From: an uncultured Ignavibacteria bacterium
Lineage (GTDB): Bacteria > Bacteroidota > Ignavibacteria > Kapaibacteriales > Kapaibacteriaceae
DNA: 44,127 bases
Direction: 5' to 3'
NCBI GenBank assembly: GCA_937870915.1
Contig: CALMZQ010000177.1
Span: 1 to 44,127 of the forward strand
Shown one piece after another: positions 1 through 11,198 of the stretch. The notes under the pieces were generated by a model. It worked only from the letters and a program-made list of their open reading frames with translations. It searched no databases and was not told the DNA's origin. The translations under genes were made by a program, and so were the position numbers. Numbering within the stretch: the first letter of the stretch is position 1; each line of letters starts with the position of its first letter.

Positions 1-47
1 TGCTCACTTTGACGCGGAATTCACTGCTCAGTTAGCAACGGAAAGAG

Positions 48-3000
48 GTGTTCACATTACGCGGATTTTCCACTCCGAGTACAAACGTTAGCGAGAGCTT
101 GATTCCAGTGTCTACCCCCGAATATTACGGGGCAAGCCAGACGTTTCTTTCATTTGCCGAAGACAGTCTCACGCAATCAGCGGTCACCTATAACGCTATC
201 GGCCAGGTCATGCGCGCTCGGCGTGGGTCCGGCGCGGACTCCGTGGTTGTTCGATATCATTACGCAGACCGAACAGGGAGACTCGATACAATCTATCTGC
301 CGGATAGTCAAAAGGTTGTCTTTACCTATGACGCATTCGGTCGCCTATCACGGATGGTCCATCCAGACCTGGGGCCTACCCGATACAAATACGACGATCG
401 ATCGCAGGTGCGATTTGTACAAACCAAGTTGCAGGCACAGGGCTTGAACGGCGTCAAACGCGTCACGTATTACGAATACGATGATCTTGGACGCCGTACG
501 CTCGTTGGAGAGGCGGCTCTGGCTACAGGCTCAACTTTTGAGTCCCTAGACTCTTCATGTGTGTCTGTAACCGGTGTGGCTGACACGCTACTCAACACGA
601 CGATCTATGACACACCAACACGCACGGTGCCTCGTATCTCTTTGAAGCGTATGCCTACAACGTGTATTCCGGCATGGGGCTCTCGTAAACCACCGTATGA
701 TTTGGCGCCGGTTGATATGGAGGACGTGTTTGTCAGACCGGCCGACGTTGTCCGCTATTTGGGTCAGAACGGTCAGTTTACATCACCTGCGGATTCCTCT
801 GACTTTGAGGATATCGGGGATTATCCTGAGCACCCACGTTCGATGGTGATCTATGACCATGTGCCCAACGTGATATCGTCGCGTGTGCCTGGGGCAGTGT
901 TCAACGGACTCCCACCGAAGCGTCTTCTTGAATGTCTTGCTCCCACCGGAGAGTTCCGCAATACGCTTGGCCGGGTGGCTGCACAAGCCTATAGAGATCA
1001 CTCATCTCAAGCCTATTGGTACAAGGTGTACTCCTATGATCATAAGGGGCGAGTTGAGTGTGAGATCCGCATTGACGATGGTCTTGGGATTGGTGTGACC
1101 TACCTTACCTATAATAGTGCTTCATTGGTAACGAGTGTTCGCACGGTGGATGCAATTCGCAATCATGCCACGTGGTATACCTATGACAATGCTGGCAGGG
1201 TGAGCCAGATGCGCACTGCTCTCTCGGCTTCCGGCCCTGACTTTGGACTCGGACTCATGGACGATGATGACGACACGCTCTTCAACTGCTATCAGACGAT
1301 GACCCCATATTTTGCGGCGCGTCCTACAGATCCTGACGTAGTGTATTCCTATGATAAAATGGGCCGAATGACATCAAAGGTTTACGCCAACGCCGAGCCG
1401 GCAGGAGACATCGAGCACGAATGGAAGTTTACGTGGCAGGGTCGATTGGACACTGCCGAAGCATTTGTTGATGTTGTGCCCTTAGTTAGCATTGCCAAGG
1501 AGTCGTTTGAATACCGCACCGACGGCGTGGCAACAAAGTTCGAGAGTGATGCTCGGGTATTGACAGATACCACCTGGGCTGAGTATGATGAGATCGCGAG
1601 GGTAACGGAAACAACAAGCACTGCCTTTACGAGCTCCAACTATGAGTTTGACGTGCTCTCGCGCAGAACGAATGAAATTCGAGGCGTTGATCCGGCAGAC
1701 ACGACACGTCCTCACACGTATGTGACCACGGGCACGGTGATCACGGATGTCACCAGTGACATGGACACGACAGAGCGTGTAGACTACACCTGGGACGGAC
1801 AAGGCCGAGCTACCGGAAGACGAGTAAACGTAGGGGGCATCGCTACCGACGAAAGTTATGAGTACGGATATCATGACCGTATGCTCACACTGGCGATCGA
1901 CGATCCGGAGCGAGCTCCCGGATGTACACCGGTGGCCGTTGATTCAAACAACAACAACTACAGCGAATTTGAGACATGGGCCTACCGGTACTCACCATCG
2001 GGCTTGCGTGAACAGAAAAGACTCATGACAGACTGGGTGCATGACCGTAATACCTGCGGTACAGCGCCATGGACGCACTATGTACTCAGCGGATCAGGCA
2101 GACCTCTTGTTGTCTACCATGGTCGCCAGACCTCAGAAAATCCGTGCGCTACGGATAGTTTTGGCATCTATGATCGGCGCGTTTACATCTATCCATTCGA
2201 ATTCCGAGCCTACGGTCCGGATGGTGTGAACGTCATCTTTGAACGTGACCAATACGGCGAATGGGTCAAGCGTTTTGTAACACACAACCGCCAGGGGTCT
2301 ATCGTCGGTATCAACGACGCAGATGGCTATCAAGACCAAGCCCTATACGAGAACTATGGGTCACGTCACAACGATTGGGACCGCCGAACCGGATGGCTCG
2401 ACCGTGAACGTGATTATGAAACATCACCGAACTCAGCCGCACACAAACTCTACGATCTCGATCACCGCAGGTACGATCAATCAAGCGCTACCTTCTTGAG
2501 TGTAGACCCACTGTGGATGTCGAACCTGCATCAAGGATCATATGTGTATTGTGAAGGTGATGGCATTAATTTGATTGATCCATGGGGGTTGGATCCAGCT
2601 AGTCCGCTTAAACCTGGGAGCACGAGCAAAGGGGGAAGTGGATACGTTGATGTAAGAGACCCTAAGATCTCCAATGAACGAGGGGACGAGACTCTGCCGG
2701 GTGGGCAACATGGCGGAGATTGGGGTGGTGCGAGTAGCGGAAGTGGCAGTTCCGGCGGAAGTAAAGGGTCGAGTGAGAAAAGGGATCCGAATACTGTTTC
2801 AGATCCAACTCAAGACCCGTTTGGTTACAACACTCCGCAAGGTTCGATTCGTAAAGTTGGTGTCGCTCTGCGGATCGGTTGTGTTGAATGTCTTTCACCT
2901 GTAGAACGCTCAAATGTTAGGCAGTTCCTTGGTATTGTTGCAGGTGAATCAAGCCCACTCGAAGAGGAAGCAAAAGAGATAGGTGAGGTACTTATAAATC

Positions 3001-3386
3001 GTATGCTTTGGGTTGGGGTCACCTTCAGCACGCCTGATATGATTAATAAGATTGGAGGTAAGAAAAGCTTTGCATCAATGAAAGAAACTGACGAGGATAA
3101 TGGATACCCGGCTGTTATGAATGAGCAGCTTACAGAGGTGTTATCTTCTGAATTCAAATTTAGTTCGAGTATCGAAGGAGCTGTTGATGCTATGATTGAT
3201 GAGCAAGAGTCTGATCCATTCAATCTCCATACTCCCTATTTCTGGGATGGAAATGATAGTCGTGACAAGGCGATAACAGGTCCGTGGACTTGGCTTGAAA
3301 ATGGGACAGGAACGCACACGATCTTGTATACCATCGGTGGAACAACTTTCTTCAGGTACATCAACCCAAAGCGGAGGTGGAAATGA
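48..3386 (+). CDS. RHS/YD-repeat polymorphic toxin with SleB-like C-terminal domain (probably 5'-truncated)
   Basis: Seen: at least ten YD-type repeats (for example VFTYDAFGRLSRM, YSYDKMGRMTSK, YTWDGQGRATGR) fill residues ~40-690. The RHS-associated core follows and ends in YDQSSATFLSVDPLW and the IDPWGLD motif at ~843-849. A Gly/Ser-rich linker (~850-930) leads to a C-terminal domain (~935-1112) with GIVAGESS, EIGEVLINRM and FWDGNDS...TGPW. Known: RHS cores form a shell around a variable toxin tip, and DPxGL is where RHS toxins cleave themselves. The GES and LNR-like patterns recall SleB/hydrolase_2 cell-wall hydrolases. Inferred: a contact-dependent or secreted toxin acting on peptidoglycan. 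The start used is GTG with no clear ribosome site. An in-frame TAG at 33-35 blocks extension, and there is no signal peptide or N-terminal delivery domain, so the 5' part is probably lost or frameshifted. The tail is more AT-rich than the core, as expected for a swapped cassette. The stop overlaps the next gene by 4 nt. The RHS call is firm; the tail assignment is tentative. Confidence 0.85.
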   Translation: MFTLRGFSTPSTNVSESLIPVSTPEYYGASQTFLSFAEDSLTQSAVTYNAIGQVMRARRGSGADSVVVRYHYADRTGRLDTIYLPDSQKVVFTYDAFGRLSRMVHPDLGPTRYKYDDRSQVRFVQTKLQAQGLNGVKRVTYYEYDDLGRRTLVGEAALATGSTFESLDSSCVSVTGVADTLLNTTIYDTPTRTVPRISLKRMPTTCIPAWGSRKPPYDLAPVDMEDVFVRPADVVRYLGQNGQFTSPADSSDFEDIGDYPEHPRSMVIYDHVPNVISSRVPGAVFNGLPPKRLLECLAPTGEFRNTLGRVAAQAYRDHSSQAYWYKVYSYDHKGRVECEIRIDDGLGIGVTYLTYNSASLVTSVRTVDAIRNHATWYTYDNAGRVSQMRTALSASGPDFGLGLMDDDDDTLFNCYQTMTPYFAARPTDPDVVYSYDKMGRMTSKVYANAEPAGDIEHEWKFTWQGRLDTAEAFVDVVPLVSIAKESFEYRTDGVATKFESDARVLTDTTWAEYDEIARVTETTSTAFTSSNYEFDVLSRRTNEIRGVDPADTTRPHTYVTTGTVITDVTSDMDTTERVDYTWDGQGRATGRRVNVGGIATDESYEYGYHDRMLTLAIDDPERAPGCTPVAVDSNNNNYSEFETWAYRYSPSGLREQKRLMTDWVHDRNTCGTAPWTHYVLSGSGRPLVVYHGRQTSENPCATDSFGIYDRRVYIYPFEFRAYGPDGVNVIFERDQYGEWVKRFVTHNRQGSIVGINDADGYQDQALYENYGSRHNDWDRRTGWLDRERDYETSPNSAAHKLYDLDHRRYDQSSATFLSVDPLWMSNLHQGSYVYCEGDGINLIDPWGLDPASPLKPGSTSKGGSGYVDVRDPKISNERGDETLPGGQHGGDWGGASSGSGSSGGSKGSSEKRDPNTVSDPTQDPFGYNTPQGSIRKVGVALRIGCVECLSPVERSNVRQFLGIVAGESSPLEEEAKEIGEVLINRMLWVGVTFSTPDMINKIGGKKSFASMKETDEDNGYPAVMNEQLTEVLSSEFKFSSSIEGAVDAMIDEQESDPFNLHTPYFWDGNDSRDKAITGPWTWLENGTGTHTILYTIGGTTFFRYINPKRRWK

Positions 3387-4240
3387 CATTCTTTTTGAAA
3401 GTTACGCCGATCGTTATTTTGCTACTCGCCATCGGATGTACAAAGAGTGACACTGTTGGGCAAGGTACAGTAGGTGGGCCAATTGGGGATAGCGTAGTAT
3501 TGGCAAAAAAGCAAAATGATGAACATGTCATTTTCAGTACGAAGCTGTGTGAACTCAACAATACAGACTCAGTTAGAGTGACTGTGGTGTTTAAAGGGTC
3601 AACCCGTGATCTTCATGTTTTCTCAGAACTGGATACTATAATAGGCCATGCTCGTTCAGTGTATGACGTGATATCATTGCCAAGTAGCGCTGGTATCATG
3701 TTACAAGTAAAGGTTGGTTCAGGTTCTGACAATGAGCAATTTGAGCGCTCAATTGTTAGACTACATAATAACAAGTTGGTATGTTCACTGGTGATGACCG
3801 ATTCTACGTGGCTCAATGAGTATTATACAGGTGAGTACGGCCCAGATGCACCAGTATGGACATGGGAGGGGGTTGATACGGTTGATGGTGATTTGCACTC
3901 TGAATTCCAATTTTCTTCGGATGCATCGGAGTTGACAGTGCGTCAAAGCTATCCTGTTTTTGCACTGCGCAATGGAGTGGTCAAGAGTTGGAGTCATAGT
4001 AAGACTACGCGTCTCTATTACGATGATGAGAATGGCGTGTATTCTCAACTGACCGGCTCGTCCGGCCCGATCGGCAGAATCGATTACTGCGTCGATTCAA
4101 CAAGGTGTGGCCGACAATTCGAGCCTCGTTTTATCAACTTCATTCAAGAACGAGTACTTTATGACGGCTGTCACTGGTTGATGAAATCGAGAGCCGGTTG
4201 TTTCACACCTTTGCACATGCCTACTTCTGAGAAGCCATAG
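3383..4240 (+). CDS. Lipoprotein, candidate immunity protein for the RHS toxin
   Basis: Seen: 285 residues beginning at ATG 3383 with GGAGG at 3373-3377. An upstream GTG at 3377 is in frame but would place the start inside the ribosome site. The N-terminus is a hydrophobic signal ending in the lipobox LLAIGC, then a polar mature domain of beta-rich character with no family I recognise. ATGA at 3383-3386 couples it to the RHS stop. It is a distant paralogue of the lipoprotein at 8558-9406: RSVYDVISL matches RSYDSVYVL, NNKLVCSLVM matches DGKLVACAIL, and LYYDDENGVYSQ matches LLFDNDLGVYYT. Inferred: an envelope-anchored immunity protein, which fits a toxin attacking peptidoglycan in the periplasm. 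Translational coupling would supply it with the toxin. Confidence 0.75.
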   Translation: MTFFLKVTPIVILLLAIGCTKSDTVGQGTVGGPIGDSVVLAKKQNDEHVIFSTKLCELNNTDSVRVTVVFKGSTRDLHVFSELDTIIGHARSVYDVISLPSSAGIMLQVKVGSGSDNEQFERSIVRLHNNKLVCSLVMTDSTWLNEYYTGEYGPDAPVWTWEGVDTVDGDLHSEFQFSSDASELTVRQSYPVFALRNGVVKSWSHSKTTRLYYDDENGVYSQLTGSSGPIGRIDYCVDSTRCGRQFEPRFINFIQERVLYDGCHWLMKSRAGCFTPLHMPTSEKP

Positions 4241-4705: not shown

Positions 4706-5797
4706 CTATTGTTCAATCTGTTTTAGCTTCACTGACAACATAGGTATGGATGCAATCGCATCGTGTTTACGTTGATCTACCAGCTTCGCATAGATCTGCG
4801 TCACCTTAATGTCGCGGTGGCCGAGCAAATGTTGTACGGCGTAAAGATCAATCCCCTGTGTGACCAACAACGTTGCAAACGTGTGCCGGGCAGTGTGGCT
4901 GGTGATGTGCTTCTCAATGCCTGCCTTGGCAACCCACCGCTGTAGGCGACGGTTGTAAACGTCGTCACGAGAAGGGAAGTCGAACACCTTCTCATTGGGT
5001 CGGGCGTTGTTACGCTCCGGTAGGAGCTCTCGGGCTTGATCGGAGATGGGAACAAGAACGTCATCGCCTGTTTTTTTCTGTGTGATCCTCAGTTCGGCCC
5101 CCTGCACACCCTTCCACGTGAGTGCGCGGAGATCGCTTATCCGCAGACCGGTGAGGCAGGCGAACAAGAATGACCGTTTTACCATGTCATGGTCGGTCGG
5201 GGTTGCAAACAAGGCGCGGAGTTCGTCCACGGTTAGATACTCGCGGCTGGTACGAACACGCTTGATAGGCCGTGCGTACGTGAAAGGGTTCACACCAATG
5301 ATCTTCTGCTTTACTGCGATGTTGAAGGCGGTCTTGAGCACATCGAGGTATGTTGCGATGGAGTTGGGTTTGAGACCCTGTTCCTCAAGGTGTCTCCGGA
5401 AACCGTCGATCCAATTCTCGCCAATATCGCCGAAACGTGGTCTACCCTTGGTGTATTCAGATAGGTGGTAACGCGTGTTCCGCCACGGCTTCCCACGAGT
5501 GGCCTTTAGCTCGTCGAAGAAAGTTAGGAAGTCCTCTTCAGGTCGTAGCTGCAGCTCCTCTATCCCTACCCGACGTAGTGACCGCTCTCGCAGCCGCTTG
5601 GCCTTGATCTGCTCAGCCAAAAGCATCGCTTCGCGGTCGCGATCTTTGTCACCTGATAGATAGATGCCAAGGTGTTCGCGTGTACGTTTGCCCCTATCGA
5701 CAACATCCAGTATGAGGGCGTCAGCATTCTTGCCCTTACGGATCCGTATCGTAACCCCGATTGCAGTGGCCTTAGTCTTTGTGGTGCGTTTGGACAC
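4706..5797 (-). CDS. Tyrosine recombinase / site-specific integrase
   Basis: 363 residues. Seen: an N-terminal arm-binding region (~1-80), a SAM-like core-binding domain (~85-180), and the catalytic domain (~185-350) with R219 in TGLRISDLRALTW, a lysine near 241 in TQKKTGD, H301-x2-R304 in HTARHTFA, H327 in LLGHRD, and nucleophile Y336 in TQIYAK. All catalytic positions are present. Known: the family cuts and rejoins DNA through a 3'-phosphotyrosine and drives integration of genomic islands. Context: the gene starts about 150 bp from a tRNA-Pro 3' fragment, a typical att site, and lies between an intact RHS toxin pair and decayed orphan cassettes. A truncated second copy lies at 8057-8386. 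It probably mobilises, or once mobilised, this accessory region. Confidence 0.93.
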   Translation of the reverse strand: MSKRTTKTKATAIGVTIRIRKGKNADALILDVVDRGKRTREHLGIYLSGDKDRDREAMLLAEQIKAKRLRERSLRRVGIEELQLRPEEDFLTFFDELKATRGKPWRNTRYHLSEYTKGRPRFGDIGENWIDGFRRHLEEQGLKPNSIATYLDVLKTAFNIAVKQKIIGVNPFTYARPIKRVRTSREYLTVDELRALFATPTDHDMVKRSFLFACLTGLRISDLRALTWKGVQGAELRITQKKTGDDVLVPISDQARELLPERNNARPNEKVFDFPSRDDVYNRRLQRWVAKAGIEKHITSHTARHTFATLLVTQGIDLYAVQHLLGHRDIKVTQIYAKLVDQRKHDAIASIPMLSVKLKQIEQ

Positions 5798-6045: not shown

Positions 6046-6097
6046 CGCAACACGAAACGGTGCTACAACACCATGAGACCTACGCCCCCTCTTCAAC

Positions 6098-6262
6098 TAT
6101 GATCAATCAAACGTCACCATATTCAGTGTAGACTCACGATGGCTGTTGAACCTGCATCAAGGGGCGTATGTGATTTGCGATGGTGATGGGATAAACATGA
6201 TCGATCCGTGGGGGCTGGACCAAGCGCCCGGGGGATCAGGATGCCTTACCTTAGCAACTTGA
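6098..6262 (+). pseudogene. RHS core-tip remnant 1
   Basis: The reading frame gives YDQSNVTIFSVDSRW, then LNLHQGAYVICDGDG and INMIDPWGLD, which matches residues ~815-849 of the RHS protein at 48-3386, and then runs to a stop at 6260-6262. The frame is closed upstream by TGA at 6074-6076. This is a detached RHS tip, the entry point of an orphan toxin cassette. Nucleotide similarity to the intact tip is obvious. Confidence 0.85.
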
Positions 6263-6311
6263 GGAAACTGCCGGGCATGTTGTTGCAGCAAGGTGCAACA
6301 TTGGCGTTTGA

Positions 6312-6665
6312 ATGAACACTTCTGTGTCAATTAGTAAAGTGGACGGATGGTATGCAACCATGTCACCGAGCGAAATAGATCCTAGCACATACTTTAGCGG
6401 TAACGCAGCATACGTCAAAGGCGGAATATCCTTAGCCTCAGCCGCGGGTCTAGGCTCGCAAGTTAGTTTAGTTGATCCACCACCCGGTTCAACGTCACTT
6501 CCAATTGTAAATGGTTTCGATGTACACACAACGATAGGAATTGGCTTGGCGAAAGGAAGTTGTGCAATCAGCAAGTCGTGGCTACTTCCCGTTTTTGCCA
6601 TTTTAGAATATGAAAGCGGTGAACATGAAAACGGTCAAGATGAAGAACATGTACACGGGCGTTAG
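6312..6665 (+). pseudogene. Possible decayed RHS toxin C-terminal domain (orphan cassette 1)
   Basis: 117 codons from ATG 6312, directly after an in-frame TGA (6309-6311). The same frame is open from 6255 to that TGA (QLEETAGHVVAARCN), so a longer domain may have been interrupted by the stop and by a frameshift relative to the RHS tip just upstream. The body is Gly/Ala/Ser-rich (YVKGGISLASAAGLGS, FDVHTTIGIGLAKGS). I recognise no toxin family. Its 3' end overlaps the next ORF by 56 nt. Position between an RHS tip and a membrane protein is the main argument for a toxin tail. Confidence 0.45.
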
Positions 6666-6999
6666 CGTTCGCCATTGGGTAGTCTTTTGGTCTATCACAA
6701 TCACCGTTGCGAGTTTACTGTTGATTGTAGATCAAGGAGATCCGACATTTCAAGAACAGGAGTTTACCTCAGAGATAGTGTCGATTCAGAGTCGCGATAC
6801 ATGCTGGCAACTGGAACTTGCTGTGGGTGTCATGTCAAGGAGTCGCCACATCATTCTTATCTGTCCAAAGTCTTGGGGCGATGGTTTCAGTAGCAAGAGC
6901 TTGCATATCGGTCTGATAGCTCATAAGATATCGGGCTCAGATACTCTCGAATTTTACGACCGTAGTCATAGGTACATTGGATACGTCGTCTGCAAATAG
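6610..6999 (+). CDS. Small membrane-anchored protein, candidate orphan immunity protein
   Basis: 129 residues from ATG 6610. In-frame ATGs at 6625, 6640 and 6649 are alternatives, and no start has a strong ribosome site. One hydrophobic segment, WVVFWSITITVASLLLIV (~23-40), is followed by a ~90-residue polar domain ending in HRYIGYVVCK. No known family recognised. It occupies the immunity slot of orphan cassette 1, after a presumed toxin tail. A membrane anchor with an exported domain fits protection against an envelope-acting toxin. Confidence 0.5.
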   Translation: MKAVNMKTVKMKNMYTGVSVRHWVVFWSITITVASLLLIVDQGDPTFQEQEFTSEIVSIQSRDTCWQLELAVGVMSRSRHIILICPKSWGDGFSSKSLHIGLIAHKISGSDTLEFYDRSHRYIGYVVCK

Positions 7000-7106
7000 A
7001 GAAGTAATGAGCGCGCTATAATGCCGTGAATGGTGGGGATTATCATTTGTGATCACTGCGTCGCATTCTAATAATGTACTCCTATGAGTAATCGCCATTG
7101 TCAAAC

Positions 7107-7202
7107 CTCGATCACCGCAAGTACGATCAATCAAGCGCCACGTTCCTCAGCGTCGATCCGTTGTGGATGTCAAACCTGCATCAAGGGGCGTATGTTCTAT
7201 GA
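7107..7202 (+). pseudogene. RHS core-tip remnant 2
   Basis: Frame reads LDHRKYDQSSATFLSVDPLW, then MSNLHQGAYVL and stop (7200-7202), nearly identical to the intact RHS tip at residues ~805-835. It breaks off before the IDPWGL motif. A frame change at ~7195 continues into a 22-codon tail that ends in an ATGA overlap with the following lipoprotein. Confidence 0.85.
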
Positions 7203-7263
7203 CGCCGGATTTGGCATTCGCTCAAACGGATTGTTGTTTCCACGAAAATTTATCCTACCATGA
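7195..7263 (+). pseudogene. Toxin-tail stump of orphan cassette 2
   Basis: Twenty-two codons, FYDAGFGIRSNGLLF then PRKFILP, ending at TGA 7261-7263. The TGA overlaps the ATG at 7260 of the next gene exactly as the intact RHS stop overlaps its immunity gene. Inferred: the last residues of a toxin whose body was deleted between this point and the RHS tip. Too short to classify. Confidence 0.45.
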
Positions 7264-7883
7264 AGTACCCACTTGCAACTCTTGTCCATTTCATTCTTGG
7301 AATTGCATCCTGTGCAATCTGTAGCGGCTGCATCTATGAAGATGGCACCGATTGCGGAAAAACAGAAGCGCAGTTGAGAAAGCTCATGCACAGTGATTGG
7401 TGGGCTCAAAGTGAATCTGTGATTGACTCAACGTGTTTAAAGATTGTCGAGTATTCGACGTGTAAGAATGTGGACCGCAAAGTTCTTTTCGCATTTGTTA
7501 GCACGTTGTTTGGAAACCGTCAGTATTCGCAAGCACGATTTGTTCTGAGCGGGATTGCTCAGAACGGTCATTCTCGCATAGTGGACACCTTGTTGCTTGT
7601 GCTGGCTGATTGGAAATTGCTGGACACAACATCTGCGCGTAGTCGGTTGTCGGAATTTGTCAGGATCTATCGTGCAGACGCAGCCCAGAGATCCGCGCGA
7701 GACAGTGATATTGACAAGACCATTGTGCTTGCTTTACTTGTTCTAAATCGAGATTGGAACCACGACCCAGATACATTGTTGATCAGCTCGATTCGATTGC
7801 AACTCATGGATGAACAACGTCACATGTTTGATCGCGTCGGATCGACCGCTCAAGCTATTGTAGCAGCGTATTGTCCTGGCTAA
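7260..7883 (+). CDS. Lipoprotein, candidate orphan immunity protein
   Basis: 207 residues from ATG 7260. A hydrophobic N-terminus (LATLVHFILGIASCAICSGC) has a lipobox-like cysteine at the ICSGC or IASC position. The mature part is mostly helical with the look of a helical-repeat scaffold (KVLFAFVSTLFGNRQYS, VDTLLLVLADWKLLD). Not similar to the other two lipoproteins of this region, so it probably protects against a different toxin. Follows an RHS tip remnant and a toxin-tail stump with a 4-nt overlap. Unknown family; the immunity role is inferred from position. Confidence 0.6.
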   Translation: MKYPLATLVHFILGIASCAICSGCIYEDGTDCGKTEAQLRKLMHSDWWAQSESVIDSTCLKIVEYSTCKNVDRKVLFAFVSTLFGNRQYSQARFVLSGIAQNGHSRIVDTLLLVLADWKLLDTTSARSRLSEFVRIYRADAAQRSARDSDIDKTIVLALLVLNRDWNHDPDTLLISSIRLQLMDEQRHMFDRVGSTAQAIVAAYCPG

Positions 7884-8056: not shown

Positions 8057-8386
8057 TCACTTCACATGTTCTTTCAAGTATACTCCAATTGACGGAATGC
8101 TTGCAATCGCCATACTCTTTCGTTGATCCACCAGCTTCGCATAGATCTGGGTCAGCTTGATATCGCGGTGGCCGAGTAAATGTTGTACGGCGTAGAGATC
8201 GTTCCCTTGCGTAACCAACAACGTTGCGAATGTGTGCCGGGCGATGTGGCTAGTGATGTGTTTCTCAATGCCTGCCTTGGCAACCCACCACTGAAGGCGG
8301 CGGTTGTAAACGTCGTCACGAGAAGGGAAGTCGAACACCTTCTCATTGGGACGGGCGTTGTTACGTTCCGGGAGAAGCTCTCCTGT
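8057..8386 (-). pseudogene. Truncated tyrosine recombinase, C-terminal third
   Basis: Encodes ELLPERNNARPNEKVFDFPS through the catalytic HxxR, LLGHRD and TQIYAK motifs to the stop, matching residues ~257-363 of the integrase at 4706-5797 almost residue for residue. The N-terminal domains and first catalytic arginine are missing, so it cannot be active alone. The match ends abruptly near 8386, next to a toxin-tail fragment on the other strand. It forms a ~300-bp direct repeat with 4720-5030. Confidence 0.93.
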
Positions 8387-8512
8387 CTGTTCTGGAATGT
8401 GAATAGTTTAACTTTGAGCACTGCTGGACCATGGGCTGAATATCGCGCTGGTATTATACAGAGTTGCAGTGACCATGGGAAGGGCAACATTATTCAGATA
8501 TCCCGATGGTAA
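8387..8512 (+). pseudogene. Truncated SleB-like RHS toxin tail (orphan cassette 3)
   Basis: The frame ends at TAA 8510-8512 and reads CLFWNVNSLTLSTAGPWAEY, later GKGNIIQISRW. Compare the intact toxin's end, YFWDGNDSRDKAITGPWTW and later GTTFFRYINPKRRWK. The FW(D/N)xN and (T)GPW landmarks fall 13-14 residues apart in both. The piece starts where the integrase fragment stops, so the upstream toxin was replaced or deleted. The following lipoprotein is a paralogue of the intact immunity candidate, which supports the match independently. Confidence 0.65.
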
Positions 8513-8557
8513 ACGAACATGGAAGTGGTGCTGACGAGATACCAACGCAGAGGGATA

Positions 8558-9406
8558 ATGCATTTCTGTATGGGTTCAATCGGATTCTCATACATAATTG
8601 CTCTCGTAGCTGTCATCACCATTGGATGCAGCACGAAAGAATCGAACGCGCATCATAGTTCTATTGCTTCACAAAGTATGGCCGAGAAGCAAGTGACTAA
8701 TGAAGTTGCGTTCACTTTAGATGTAACCGACAGCAAGAGCAATAACCTCGAGAAGATAAAAGTACAGGTCGCTGGCAAAGGTATATTGAATGTTACTCTC
8801 GGAGATTCAGGGTATAGCGTTGGCTATATGCGCAGCTACGATTCCGTCTATGTACTGAAAGGCAAAGTTCTCGTCATCTCAGGTATCAACCACAATATTA
8901 GTTGGGGGTATGATAACGATGAATACTGGTTCCGGGTCTTGGACGGGAAGCTCGTCGCATGCGCAATCTTACAACGTTCTTTGGCAGTATTGCAGTATTG
9001 GAGTGGAACATCGATCGATCGAGATCCTGGATTGAAAATTGGTGAGATTCAAGGTGGAGGATATACCTCGACTATGTTTGTATCAAATGACCTCTATAGA
9101 ATTGATGTTAGATACACGGACACTTCATACCGTATCACTGAAACAGGGGGGGAGCCCGTGGTGCGCAGGGCGCGTTATACGCTCCTGTTTGATAACGATC
9201 TAGGAGTCTACTACACTTCGATTTATAAGGCTGGATCATTGCGACCAATTGAAGGCGACGGTAGAGAGACCATTCAAGAAGTTCATCAACCTAGGTTGTT
9301 TGATCTCGGCAAGCACCGATTCCACGCGTACTACGGTTATCGATGGTTCGATTTGAGTAACTCTGGCACGTGGGTTCGGGACAAGAGTATTAAAGCCATA
9401 CCATAG
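8558..9406 (+). CDS. Lipoprotein, orphan immunity paralogue
   Basis: 282 residues from ATG 8558, chosen for the CAGAGGG ribosome site at 8548-8554 and because the signal peptide then starts at MHFCMGSIGF. An ATG at 8519 is in frame but adds a charged leader. Lipobox VITIGC. The mature domain is distantly homologous to the candidate immunity lipoprotein at 3383-4240 along its length: RSYDSVYVL, DGKLVACAIL, LLFDNDLGVYYTS and QPRLFDLGKHRF all have counterparts in the same order. It follows a truncated tail of the same toxin family. Inferred: an immunity gene kept after its toxin was lost, giving protection against related strains. Confidence 0.75.
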   Translation: MHFCMGSIGFSYIIALVAVITIGCSTKESNAHHSSIASQSMAEKQVTNEVAFTLDVTDSKSNNLEKIKVQVAGKGILNVTLGDSGYSVGYMRSYDSVYVLKGKVLVISGINHNISWGYDNDEYWFRVLDGKLVACAILQRSLAVLQYWSGTSIDRDPGLKIGEIQGGGYTSTMFVSNDLYRIDVRYTDTSYRITETGGEPVVRRARYTLLFDNDLGVYYTSIYKAGSLRPIEGDGRETIQEVHQPRLFDLGKHRFHAYYGYRWFDLSNSGTWVRDKSIKAIP

Positions 9407-9692: not shown

Positions 9693-9908
9693 ATGGAACC
9701 CGACCAACCAACCGTGGCGATGTTTGTGAAAGAACAACGCAAACGGAATGGACTCACACAATTAGATCTGGCCCGCATGGCTGGTGTGGGGTACAGGTTT
9801 GTGCGTGAACTGGAGAGTGGAAAGAAAACCCTCCGACTTGACAAGGTGAACCAAGTGCTCTTGATGTTTGGGTGTGAGCTTGGAGTAGTGCGGAGTAACG
9901 ATGCGTAG
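9693..9908 (+). CDS. hipB: HipB-like HTH antitoxin / repressor
   Basis: 71 residues from ATG 9693; an in-frame TTG at 9684 is less likely. Helix-turn-helix of the XRE type: MFVKEQRKRNGLTQLDLARM, then GVGYRFVRELESGKKTLRLD and a C-terminal strand GCELGVVRSNDA like that of HipB. Known: HipB represses the operon and takes part in the toxin complex. It overlaps the next gene by 8 nt, and its operators lie just upstream. Confidence 0.88.
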   Translation: MEPDQPTVAMFVKEQRKRNGLTQLDLARMAGVGYRFVRELESGKKTLRLDKVNQVLLMFGCELGVVRSNDA

Positions 9909-10227
9909 CGCGCAGATCTTCTTTGCAGGAACACGTGCTGGCAGACTTGTTGAAGACGCGTCAGGGTATCTCTTTGCCTATGATAAGGAGTATCTGTTGT
10001 CCACTGAACCGGTAGCGATCAGCAAGACGCTACCGTGTCGATCTGAACCCTACCATAGCAACGTTCTCTTCCCATTCTTTGATGGCTTGATCCCGGAAGG
10101 GTGGCTACTGGCACATGTAGAAAATGTGTGGAAGGTGAACCACCGAGATCGCATGGGCTTACTACTCGTAAGCTGTCGAGAAACCATCGGTGCGGTACGT
10201 GTACTTCCGGATGAGGAAGTGGAATGA
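9901..10227 (+). CDS. hipS: HipS-like protein (HipA N-terminal subdomain)
   Basis: 108 residues matching the HipA N-terminal 'couple_hipA' domain as a stand-alone protein: RAGRLVEDASGYLFAYDKEY, then PFFDGLIPEGWLLAHVENVW and RETIGAVRVLPDEEVE. Known: in HipBST systems the HipA N-terminal subdomain is a separate protein, HipS, which acts as the antitoxin of the kinase HipT. It overlaps hipB by 8 nt and hipT by 4 nt (ATGA). The split is natural, since both pieces have their own starts and no frameshift remnant is seen. Confidence 0.85.
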   Translation: MRSAQIFFAGTRAGRLVEDASGYLFAYDKEYLLSTEPVAISKTLPCRSEPYHSNVLFPFFDGLIPEGWLLAHVENVWKVNHRDRMGLLLVSCRETIGAVRVLPDEEVE

Positions 10228-11198
10228 CGCTCGACATCAACCGATGCCTCTATTGCTACAAAGAGATTCCTAACGCGGGGCATGATTTCCATGCGGCCTG
10301 CTCACGGAAGTTTTTTGGAAAACCAGAGCCCCCTGAAATCGAATTCTCAGCACAACAGCTTCAAGAACTGGCAGAACGTTTTGTTCGAACACAAGAAGCG
10401 GTTGGTGGTGTACAGCCCAAGCTCTCCCTGTCTACAAAGAATAGACGAGGCAACGTACATGGTCACGAACGGCTCACTGTTGTTGGCCTTAACGGCGACT
10501 TCATCCTCAAACCACAGAATGAACTCTACCCGTATCTGCCTGAAGTAGAAGACCTCACAATGCATTTAGCAGAAGTTGCCAGCGTGCCTGTGGTTCCACA
10601 TAGTCTCGTGCGACTTGCCTCCGGCGAGTTGGCGTATATCACTCGGAGGATAGATCGAATTCGAAATGATGTCCGCCACATGGAAGACATGTGTCAACTC
10701 ACGGAACGACTCACGGAAGACAAATACAAGGGCTCGTACGAGCAGGTGGGAAAGACTATCATGAAGTACAGTCACCAGCCCGGACTTGATCTTGTACGGT
10801 TCGCTGAACTTCTGGTGTTCTGCTATCTTACGGGGAATGCAGACATGCACCTCAAGAACTTCTCACTCATCCAGCTGCAAGGAAATGCCTTTGTTCTAGC
10901 GCCGGCGTATGACCTGGTGAATACGTCAATCCTGATGCCATCAGACACTGAGGAGCTTGCACTACCGCTCAATGGTCACAAGTCAAAACTCCAGCGCAAA
11001 CACTTTGAGAAGGGCTTCACCACGATGGGCCTTACATCAAAGCAACAAGAAGGTATTTTGAAGAAGTTTAGGAATATGCAGGGGGCTTGGACAGACATGG
11101 TGTTGGCAAGCTTTCTTCCGGAAGAGTATAAGGTTGCTTACACAGCTGTGTTGAGCTCAAGGATAACAACACTTTATCGAGACTTTGATGCTACGTGA
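10224..11198 (+). CDS. hipT: HipT-like serine/threonine kinase toxin
   Basis: 324 residues. Seen: an N-terminal zinc-knuckle-like cluster, C8-x2-C11 and H23-x2-C26; the Gly-rich loop AVGGVQPKLSL (59-69); the ATP-binding lysine K96 in FILKP; the catalytic loop GNADMHLKNFSL with D207 and N212; and the metal-binding YDLVNT with D230. All kinase residues are present. Known: EPEC HipT phosphorylates tryptophanyl-tRNA synthetase and HipA phosphorylates GltX. The target here is unknown. Two positions in the loop that carry serines in EPEC HipT appear to be A59 and G61. It is the last gene of the hipBST operon and overlaps the following exporter gene by 11 nt. Confidence 0.88.
   Translation: MTLDINRCLYCYKEIPNAGHDFHAACSRKFFGKPEPPEIEFSAQQLQELAERFVRTQEAVGGVQPKLSLSTKNRRGNVHGHERLTVVGLNGDFILKPQNELYPYLPEVEDLTMHLAEVASVPVVPHSLVRLASGELAYITRRIDRIRNDVRHMEDMCQLTERLTEDKYKGSYEQVGKTIMKYSHQPGLDLVRFAELLVFCYLTGNADMHLKNFSLIQLQGNAFVLAPAYDLVNTSILMPSDTEELALPLNGHKSKLQRKHFEKGFTTMGLTSKQQEGILKKFRNMQGAWTDMVLASFLPEEYKVAYTAVLSSRITTLYRDFDAT

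Follow-up and report, generated by a model that had tools for sequence, protein, structure and literature searches.

Several described systems resemble the toxin locus considered here. In Acinetobacter rudis, the type VI secretion system (T6SS) effector T6EC3 is PAAR-borne, has a SleB fold and is toxic in the E. coli periplasm, and its E108Q variant is not toxic (PMC11148199, 2024). The corresponding immunity protein, T6IC3, carries a natural periplasmic signal (PMC11148199). A 2012 survey of polymorphic toxins includes Tox-Glucosaminidase and L,D-peptidase tips, reports secreted or transmembrane immunity proteins for a subset of the L,D-peptidase toxins, and gives Imm65, which is paired with Tox-JAB-1, as the sole apparent lipoprotein immunity protein of its collection; SleB does not appear in the first 300,000 of the 357,715 characters of this survey (PMC3482391). 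A Sec/SPII immunity lipoprotein belongs to a Salmonella T6SS effector (PMC12992299), and SleB is named once in a text that also contains the term "T6SS effector" (PMC6423157). Among the matches listed from the open-licence literature there was no RHS-borne SleB tip, and no paper dealing with Kapabacteria together with Rhs was found in that literature. Here we analyze the whole contig CALMZQ010000177.1 (44,127 nucleotides, the window; G000:C177 in our numbering) from the 3.3 Mb, 233-contig assembly of an uncultured Ignavibacteria bacterium, and in particular an RHS gene end and the lipoprotein gene that follows it. We propose that this locus probably comprises the toxic end of a polymorphic RHS protein, with a SleB-like tip, and the immunity gene for that tip.

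The RHS frame, its tip and the adjacent lipoprotein

The plus-strand open reading frame (ORF) at 48..3386 encodes 1112 amino acids as called and is N-terminally truncated. It matches PF05593 (RHS_repeat) in six stretches as well as TIGR03696 (Rhs_assc_core), both above the cut-offs of Pfam and NCBIfam. The RHS-associated core domain spans residues 767-848 (2346..2591, + strand; TIGR03696 E 3.9e-9) and ends with the motif DPWGL at residues 844-848 (nucleotides 2577-2591). From residue 20 on, the ORF is 47% identical to residues 1241-2335 of a 2336-residue RHS protein from a second genome, G019. On the evidence of its repeats and core followed by a variable C-terminus, the window ORF is a remnant of an RHS polymorphic toxin. 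The same RHS shell occurs with different tips, as the RHS core is present in 28 of the 123 genomes of the order (E<=1e-10) and other tips were seen in the loci that were read. The first-pass annotation of this DNA described a tail of ~175 residues after DPWGL; 264 residues follow that motif, and a known fold can be aligned only to the final 177 or so. The stretch between, at 2592..2852 (+), is by reading a Gly- and Ser-rich linker from the RHS core to the tip. The putative SleB-like tip covers residues ~936-1112 (2853..3383, +), an assignment based on model matches, on hhalign and on a 50% identical tail in G019. The GES and LINRM patterns noticed in the first pass are indeed present inside this tail, as parts of VAGESS and EVLINRM.

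Comparison of profiles provides one line of evidence for the nature of the tip. Phages, plasmids and viral contigs supplied a test set of 19 Hydrolase_2 domains (14 of 60 listed matches and five of six viral loci, the partial one being dropped), and all three of the domains checked are PF07486 members far above the cut-off. Aligned by hhalign with a profile of the two tails, this set gives a score of 22.2 over 116 collinear columns that run nearly end to end (positions 25-146 against 40-185). Column-shuffled tails matched this score in 1/300 and 1/1,200 trials (2/1,500 together), none of the 1,200 did so over at least 100 columns, and reversed tails score 11.6. The SleB landmarks E, NR, DP, W, IG and last F fall in register with residues that are invariant in both tails, with the YF pair off by one. 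This register also points to Glu967 of VAGESS (2946..2948, +) as the candidate catalytic residue; it is invariant in both tails and is paired in the alignment with the leading Glu of the EARGE motif of Hydrolase_2 proteins, which we take to be the catalytic Glu of SleB.

A second line of evidence comes from an AlphaFold2 model of the tail that was built with no template from an alignment of the two tails only, with no SleB in the alignment. When this model was compared to 293 chains by VIA-align, SleB (4fet) was the sole entry with a Z of at least 2 (Z 4.8 over 97 residues, root mean square deviation 4.0, model residues 17-193); a Z below 8 in this method may reflect a common arrangement, and the absence of other families from its list is not evidence. 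Foldseek against the PDB placed SleB 4fet at ranks 2 and 3 by E-value and at the top by probability (0.14) in a list of 43 matches, none of them at E<=0.001; the match with the best E-value was an unrelated cytochrome with a probability of 0.02. Against the viral structures of BFVD, the top three matches of the same model were all annotated "Cell wall hydrolase, SleB", with probabilities of 0.85, 0.38 and 0.30. Because these weak tests agree, the structural ones all using a single model of low confidence and each E-value alone being weak, we consider it highly probable that the tail has a SleB-like fold, as predicted from the profile match and the model.

The gene immediately downstream encodes a 285-residue lipoprotein (3383..4240, +) that is the candidate immunity protein. 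Its ATG at 3383 overlaps the toxin stop codon (3384-3386) as ATGA, as the first-pass annotation had stated. Its N-terminus, MTFFLKVTPIVILLLAIGC-TK, exhibits by eye a hydrophobic stretch followed by a lipobox-like AIGC with Cys at residue 19 (3437..3439, +). This Cys is invariant in the four family members found, and the earlier recognition of a lipobox also stands. The family itself returned no meaningful match in Pfam, NCBIfam, PHROGs or PDB sequences, so that the lack of a described family, as suspected in the first pass, holds for these collections. Its four members comprise two that are coupled to a toxin, an orphan in the window and an orphan on another contig of the same genome (G000:C219).

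The tip and the lipoprotein are inherited jointly. Among 60 neighborhood genomes, own included, two carry the tail, the other being G019 (50% identity, E 4e-52), and the lipoprotein is confined to these two as well. Tail-to-tail identity is 48-50% and that of the coupled lipoproteins 28-29% (E 3e-30 in the 60-genome search, pairwise E 6e-34). In G019 the tail closes an open frame of 2366 residues, and the lipoprotein gene is directly 3' of it, with an overlap of GTGA, or of 10 nt should translation begin at a GTG two codons earlier. Profile searches found the tail and the lipoprotein family each in 2 of the 123 order genomes, own included, and these are the same two genomes. Conversely, the lipoprotein family gave no match in 26 of the 28 genomes that carry this RHS core, and therefore the lipoprotein tracks the tip and not the RHS shell. 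As both recur together in a second genome, their pairing is not due to chance, and toxin plus immunity is the best reading of what these sequences present. The proposal that the lipoprotein confers immunity thus gains indirect support from co-inheritance and from a gene start that overlaps the toxin stop codon in both genomes, the function itself being predicted. In a survey of other RHS tips, in which 7 of 30 loci were parsed, the genes next to the tips of L042, L023 and L032 start without a hydrophobic stretch versus a hydrophobic start in 2/2 for the SleB-like tips, numbers that are too few to count as evidence.

These features can be assembled into a mechanism. The tip would fold like SleB/Hydrolase_2 and act as a lytic transglycosylase that cleaves peptidoglycan in its glycan strands, Glu967 serving as the acid. 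Until release, the tip would be held by the RHS shell, and the lipoprotein would sit in the envelope and block the enzyme at its site of action. An anchored immunity protein would be explained by the apparent Sec export of long RHS proteins of this order, which would expose the producer's own periplasm. If this is true, then the lipoproteins would form a family of protein inhibitors directed at lytic transglycosylases of the SleB type, which act in spore germination and in many phage lysins. The RHS toxins of genomes that have no detectable T6SS sheath gene would also gain a tip that attacks the cell wall and, with it, an immunity protein that is anchored.

The missing N-terminal half and possible routes of delivery

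The window begins, at 1..73, with the end of a repeated insertion element that is probably IS21-like and that contains the GTG at 48. This end sequence is present at four places in the genome (here and on three other contigs), with differing flanks, and at each of them a contig end lies less than 240 nt away. A related end with 3 mismatches in 27 occurs in G019 (locus L005), where it lies 3' of istA/istB (NF033546, E 1.8e-67; NF038214, E 3.7e-70), and these IS21 transposase and IstB genes stand directly before the G019 RHS frame. The window element is assigned to IS21 because its end is shared with the IS21 of G019, its own transposase being unseen, and this assignment should be regarded as putative. 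The start at 48 that was given in the first pass is not native, since window 1-73 constitutes the element end and RHS homology begins only at ORF residue 20. The window RHS is without ~1,240 residues that are present upstream of this point in the G019 relative; that relative, too, is interrupted by an IS21, close to its own start. Thus, insertion elements with related ends have truncated both known genes for a SleB-like tip, each at a different position in the shell (L005 121-2700 and window 1-73).

With its N-terminal half lost to an insertion element, the toxin is probably no longer delivered. The locus could be a decaying remnant in which the truncated RHS protein is no longer expressed or delivered, and in which at most the immunity gene matters by protecting against relatives that have an intact toxin. 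We place the chance of this at about even. The element end covers the start of the ORF, ~1,240 residues of the relative are missing (the ORF is not a complete gene with a delivery N-terminus, its N-terminal half being cut off by the element end at the contig edge), and the neighboring RHS ends described below are remnants as well. A search of the window genome with the relative's N-terminal half also found no homologue at E<=1e-5, although this search had no positive control. On the other hand, the ~1,090 remaining codons are open, as are the tip and lipoprotein frames in the window genome, and since the element marks the edge of the contig, the upstream half could just be absent from the assembly. 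Decay of the gene is in any case compatible with the toxin-plus-immunity account of what its parts do.

Other RHS proteins give an indication of how an intact protein might leave the cell. Five of eight further RHS loci have frames of more than 2,300 residues, of which four (L046, L047, L048 and L049) begin like a Sec signal by eye and one (L045), as an open frame, does not. NCBIfam listed only Rhs_assc_core for the full RHS relatives L046 and L049, with no PAAR, VgrG or Hcp among the matches; for the other long frames it was the start region (first 140 residues) that was examined. The T6SS sheath PF05943 was not found at E<=0.001 in any of four genomes (G000, G019, G014 and G017), while the E. 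coli control was positive, and a reading of the locus as a T6SS effector was set aside for this reason. Delivery by a T6SS is unlikely given that the sheath was not found in 4/4 genomes and that 4/5 long RHS relatives begin signal-peptide-like. A type IX secretion system (T9SS) sorting tail is carried by another protein of the window genome (L044 5802-7148, E 1.6e-7), and such a tail was not among the NCBIfam matches of the L046 and L049 RHS proteins or of the window RHS. A more tentative suggestion, and one that we consider doubtful as a whole, is that there exists a Sec-exported, T6SS-independent RHS system with wall-cutting SleB-like tips that, because its toxin crosses the periplasm of the producer, needs a dedicated, membrane-anchored SleB-type inhibitor (a new family that also occurs as orphan copies) and whose toxin genes are repeatedly cut by IS21.

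Evidence against the SleB-like fold and the pairing

There are a number of observations that weigh against the account given above, most of which concern the tip. The tail has no meaningful match in Pfam, NCBIfam, PHROGs or PDB sequences. With the curated profile PF07486, neither the window tail (E<=10) nor that of G019 (E<=1) gives a match, and at E<=0.001 the profile matches in 0 of the 60 neighborhood genomes, own included. As this curated profile gives no match, we call the tail "SleB-like" and not a member of Hydrolase_2. Other matches of the tail or lipoprotein in family scans and PDB sequence searches (DUF5696, MADS8, PDDEXK_5, unnamed PHROGs, phospholipase C and a protease) were rejected, all having E>=0.03. 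All searches together yielded just two members of the tail family. Among genome contigs, a one-tail query found no homologue and a two-tail query found only L009 (G019:C94, JAGFIZ010000048.1), and there were none in viral contigs and none in plasmids. The 28 phage records that matched the tail all have E>=2, with tape-measure proteins making up the best 20 of the 28, and these were discarded. A wider search took in 395 genomes at the level of the phylum (E<=0.01) and 391 at that of the class (E<=0.1), two samples that overlap; its only additional matches were one in G311 (E 5e-4), rejected as a transmembrane protein that lies amid household genes with no RHS, and seven weak ones with E of 0.02-0.09 that span 48-67 columns. 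As a separate observation, the public title of JAGFIZ010000048.1 says Bradyrhizobiaceae; this title is probably a mislabel, because its genome sits in the family of the window genome, which carries the T9SS sorting tail.

The structural and profile comparisons have their own weaknesses. The tail model is of low confidence, with a predicted local distance difference test (pLDDT) score of 58.4, a predicted template modeling score of 0.61 and two of five models above 50; residues 11-80 are best, and the W and IG..F landmarks lie within residues 140-193, where pLDDT is below 50. A second structure prediction that used the G019 tail as seed was unusable (pLDDT 36.1), and the best Foldseek E-value across the PDB and BFVD is 0.39. 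Additionally, SleB is among the PDB entries used to train AlphaFold2. For the profile comparison, the probability that hhalign itself assigns to the two-tail match is 5%. Single tails score 18.4 over 9 columns (window) and 20.7 over 26 columns (G019), and the best of 61 unrelated window fragments scores 19.1, which is above the window tail and just below the G019 tail. Only the two-tail profile stands apart from unrelated fragments, and the single window tail does not.

These weaknesses leave room for an alternative in which the tail has another fold and still targets peptidoglycan as a toxin, or harms the envelope without being an enzyme, its likeness to SleB being due to a chance arrangement of helices plus a few motifs in common and the lipoprotein still serving as immunity protein. 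In favor of this are the low confidence of the model, the failure of the second one, the lack of a family match and single-tail scores close to those of the best unrelated fragments. Nevertheless, with one model SleB has the highest probability in both structure libraries and is alone in reaching Z>=2, and the hhalign match runs collinearly through the entire domain. We consider another fold improbable. The SleB/Hydrolase_2 tip postulated in the first pass is retained with support of moderate strength, in so far as SleB has the highest probability in the searches with the AlphaFold2 model and the hhalign match is collinear, and is qualified in that no curated family model recognizes it and the second model failed.

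Concerning the lipoprotein, Ala is uncommon at lipobox position -3, one of the four family members (L044, with LCGC) escapes a simple lipobox pattern, and signal peptides were judged by eye. Two family members lack an adjacent toxin. One is the orphan paralogue at 8519..9406 (+; likely start ATG 8558), which is 21% identical and collinear with the coupled lipoprotein (pairwise E 5e-5) and is a candidate extra immunity gene. A profile that includes this paralogue finds the other, the fourth copy, on G000:C219 at E 5.8e-31, and that contig gives no RHS-core match. These orphan copies are the main point against a strict toxin-lipoprotein pairing. Immunity genes usually have orphan copies, and arrays with orphan immunity genes are known for polymorphic toxins. 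That the lipoprotein is a neighbor with some other envelope function, such as an accessory for RHS export or anchoring, agrees with the two of four members that have no adjacent tip and with the coupled lipoproteins being less alike than the tails, but is improbable in view of the 26/28 RHS-core genomes that lack the family, the toxin-stop overlap kept in both genomes and the known occurrence of orphan immunity genes in arrays.

Displaced cassettes and comparison with known systems

The region downstream of the toxin and lipoprotein genes holds further RHS ends. A remnant of an RHS 3' end, a displaced tip cassette, is located at 6098..6225 (+; DNA 78% identical to 2472-2599), and a second RHS 3' end remnant at 7107..7195 (+; DNA 84% identical to 2457-2545). 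Within window 6077-7883, these RHS 3' remnants are followed by genes at 6610-6999, whose small product has a hydrophobic stretch at its N-terminus, and at 7260-7883, encoding a protein with a signal-peptide-like start. By simple hydrophobicity all four candidate immunity proteins of the locus (3383, 6610, 7260 and 8519) look exported or anchored, as if the locus were collecting envelope-acting tips. The displaced RHS ends are flanked by a tyrosine recombinase gene on the minus strand (4706-5797; Phage_integrase E 6e-31) and by a 286-nt fragment of it (8118-8403) that is 88% identical and lies 3.35 kb further on. In G019 there is a second tip cassette behind the first (L005 11194-12588), in which DPWGL precedes a tip with a GIY-YIG-like YVGRTSGYG recognized by eye; this tip has no Pfam match, and the gene that follows has no hydrophobic start. 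Further downstream in the window, a HipA-like kinase gene (10224-11198; HipA_C, E 1e-42) with a small ORF just upstream (9901-10227) may constitute a HipBA toxin-antitoxin pair.

The tip-lipoprotein pair shares features with three described groups. With the toxins of the 2012 survey it has in common an exchangeable C-terminal domain, here a predicted enzyme, and an adjacent gene for immunity, here a candidate (PMC3482391). It resembles Hydrolase_2 (PF07486; SleB and phage endolysins) in its predicted fold and in the landmark order E, NR, DP, W, IG..F, whereas it differs in being missed by the Pfam model and in being borne on an RHS protein. Its likeness to T6EC3/T6IC3 (PMC11148199) extends to a C-terminal toxin domain with a SleB fold (predicted in the present case), a glutamate (E108, needed for toxicity, in T6EC3 and a candidate residue here) and an immunity protein with an export signal (again a candidate here). 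The two differ in that the carrier is a T6SS PAAR protein in A. rudis and an RHS protein here, where the T6SS sheath was not found and the immunity candidate is a 285-residue lipoprotein; the tips themselves are likened by description. The first-pass annotation had raised the possibility of a new toxin/immunity pair, and this is upheld in that the literature matches listed gave no other RHS-borne SleB tip, but not beyond that. As a SleB-like effector with a periplasmic immunity protein has already been published (PMC11148199), the pair in the window constitutes a variant of a known arrangement and introduces no new principle.

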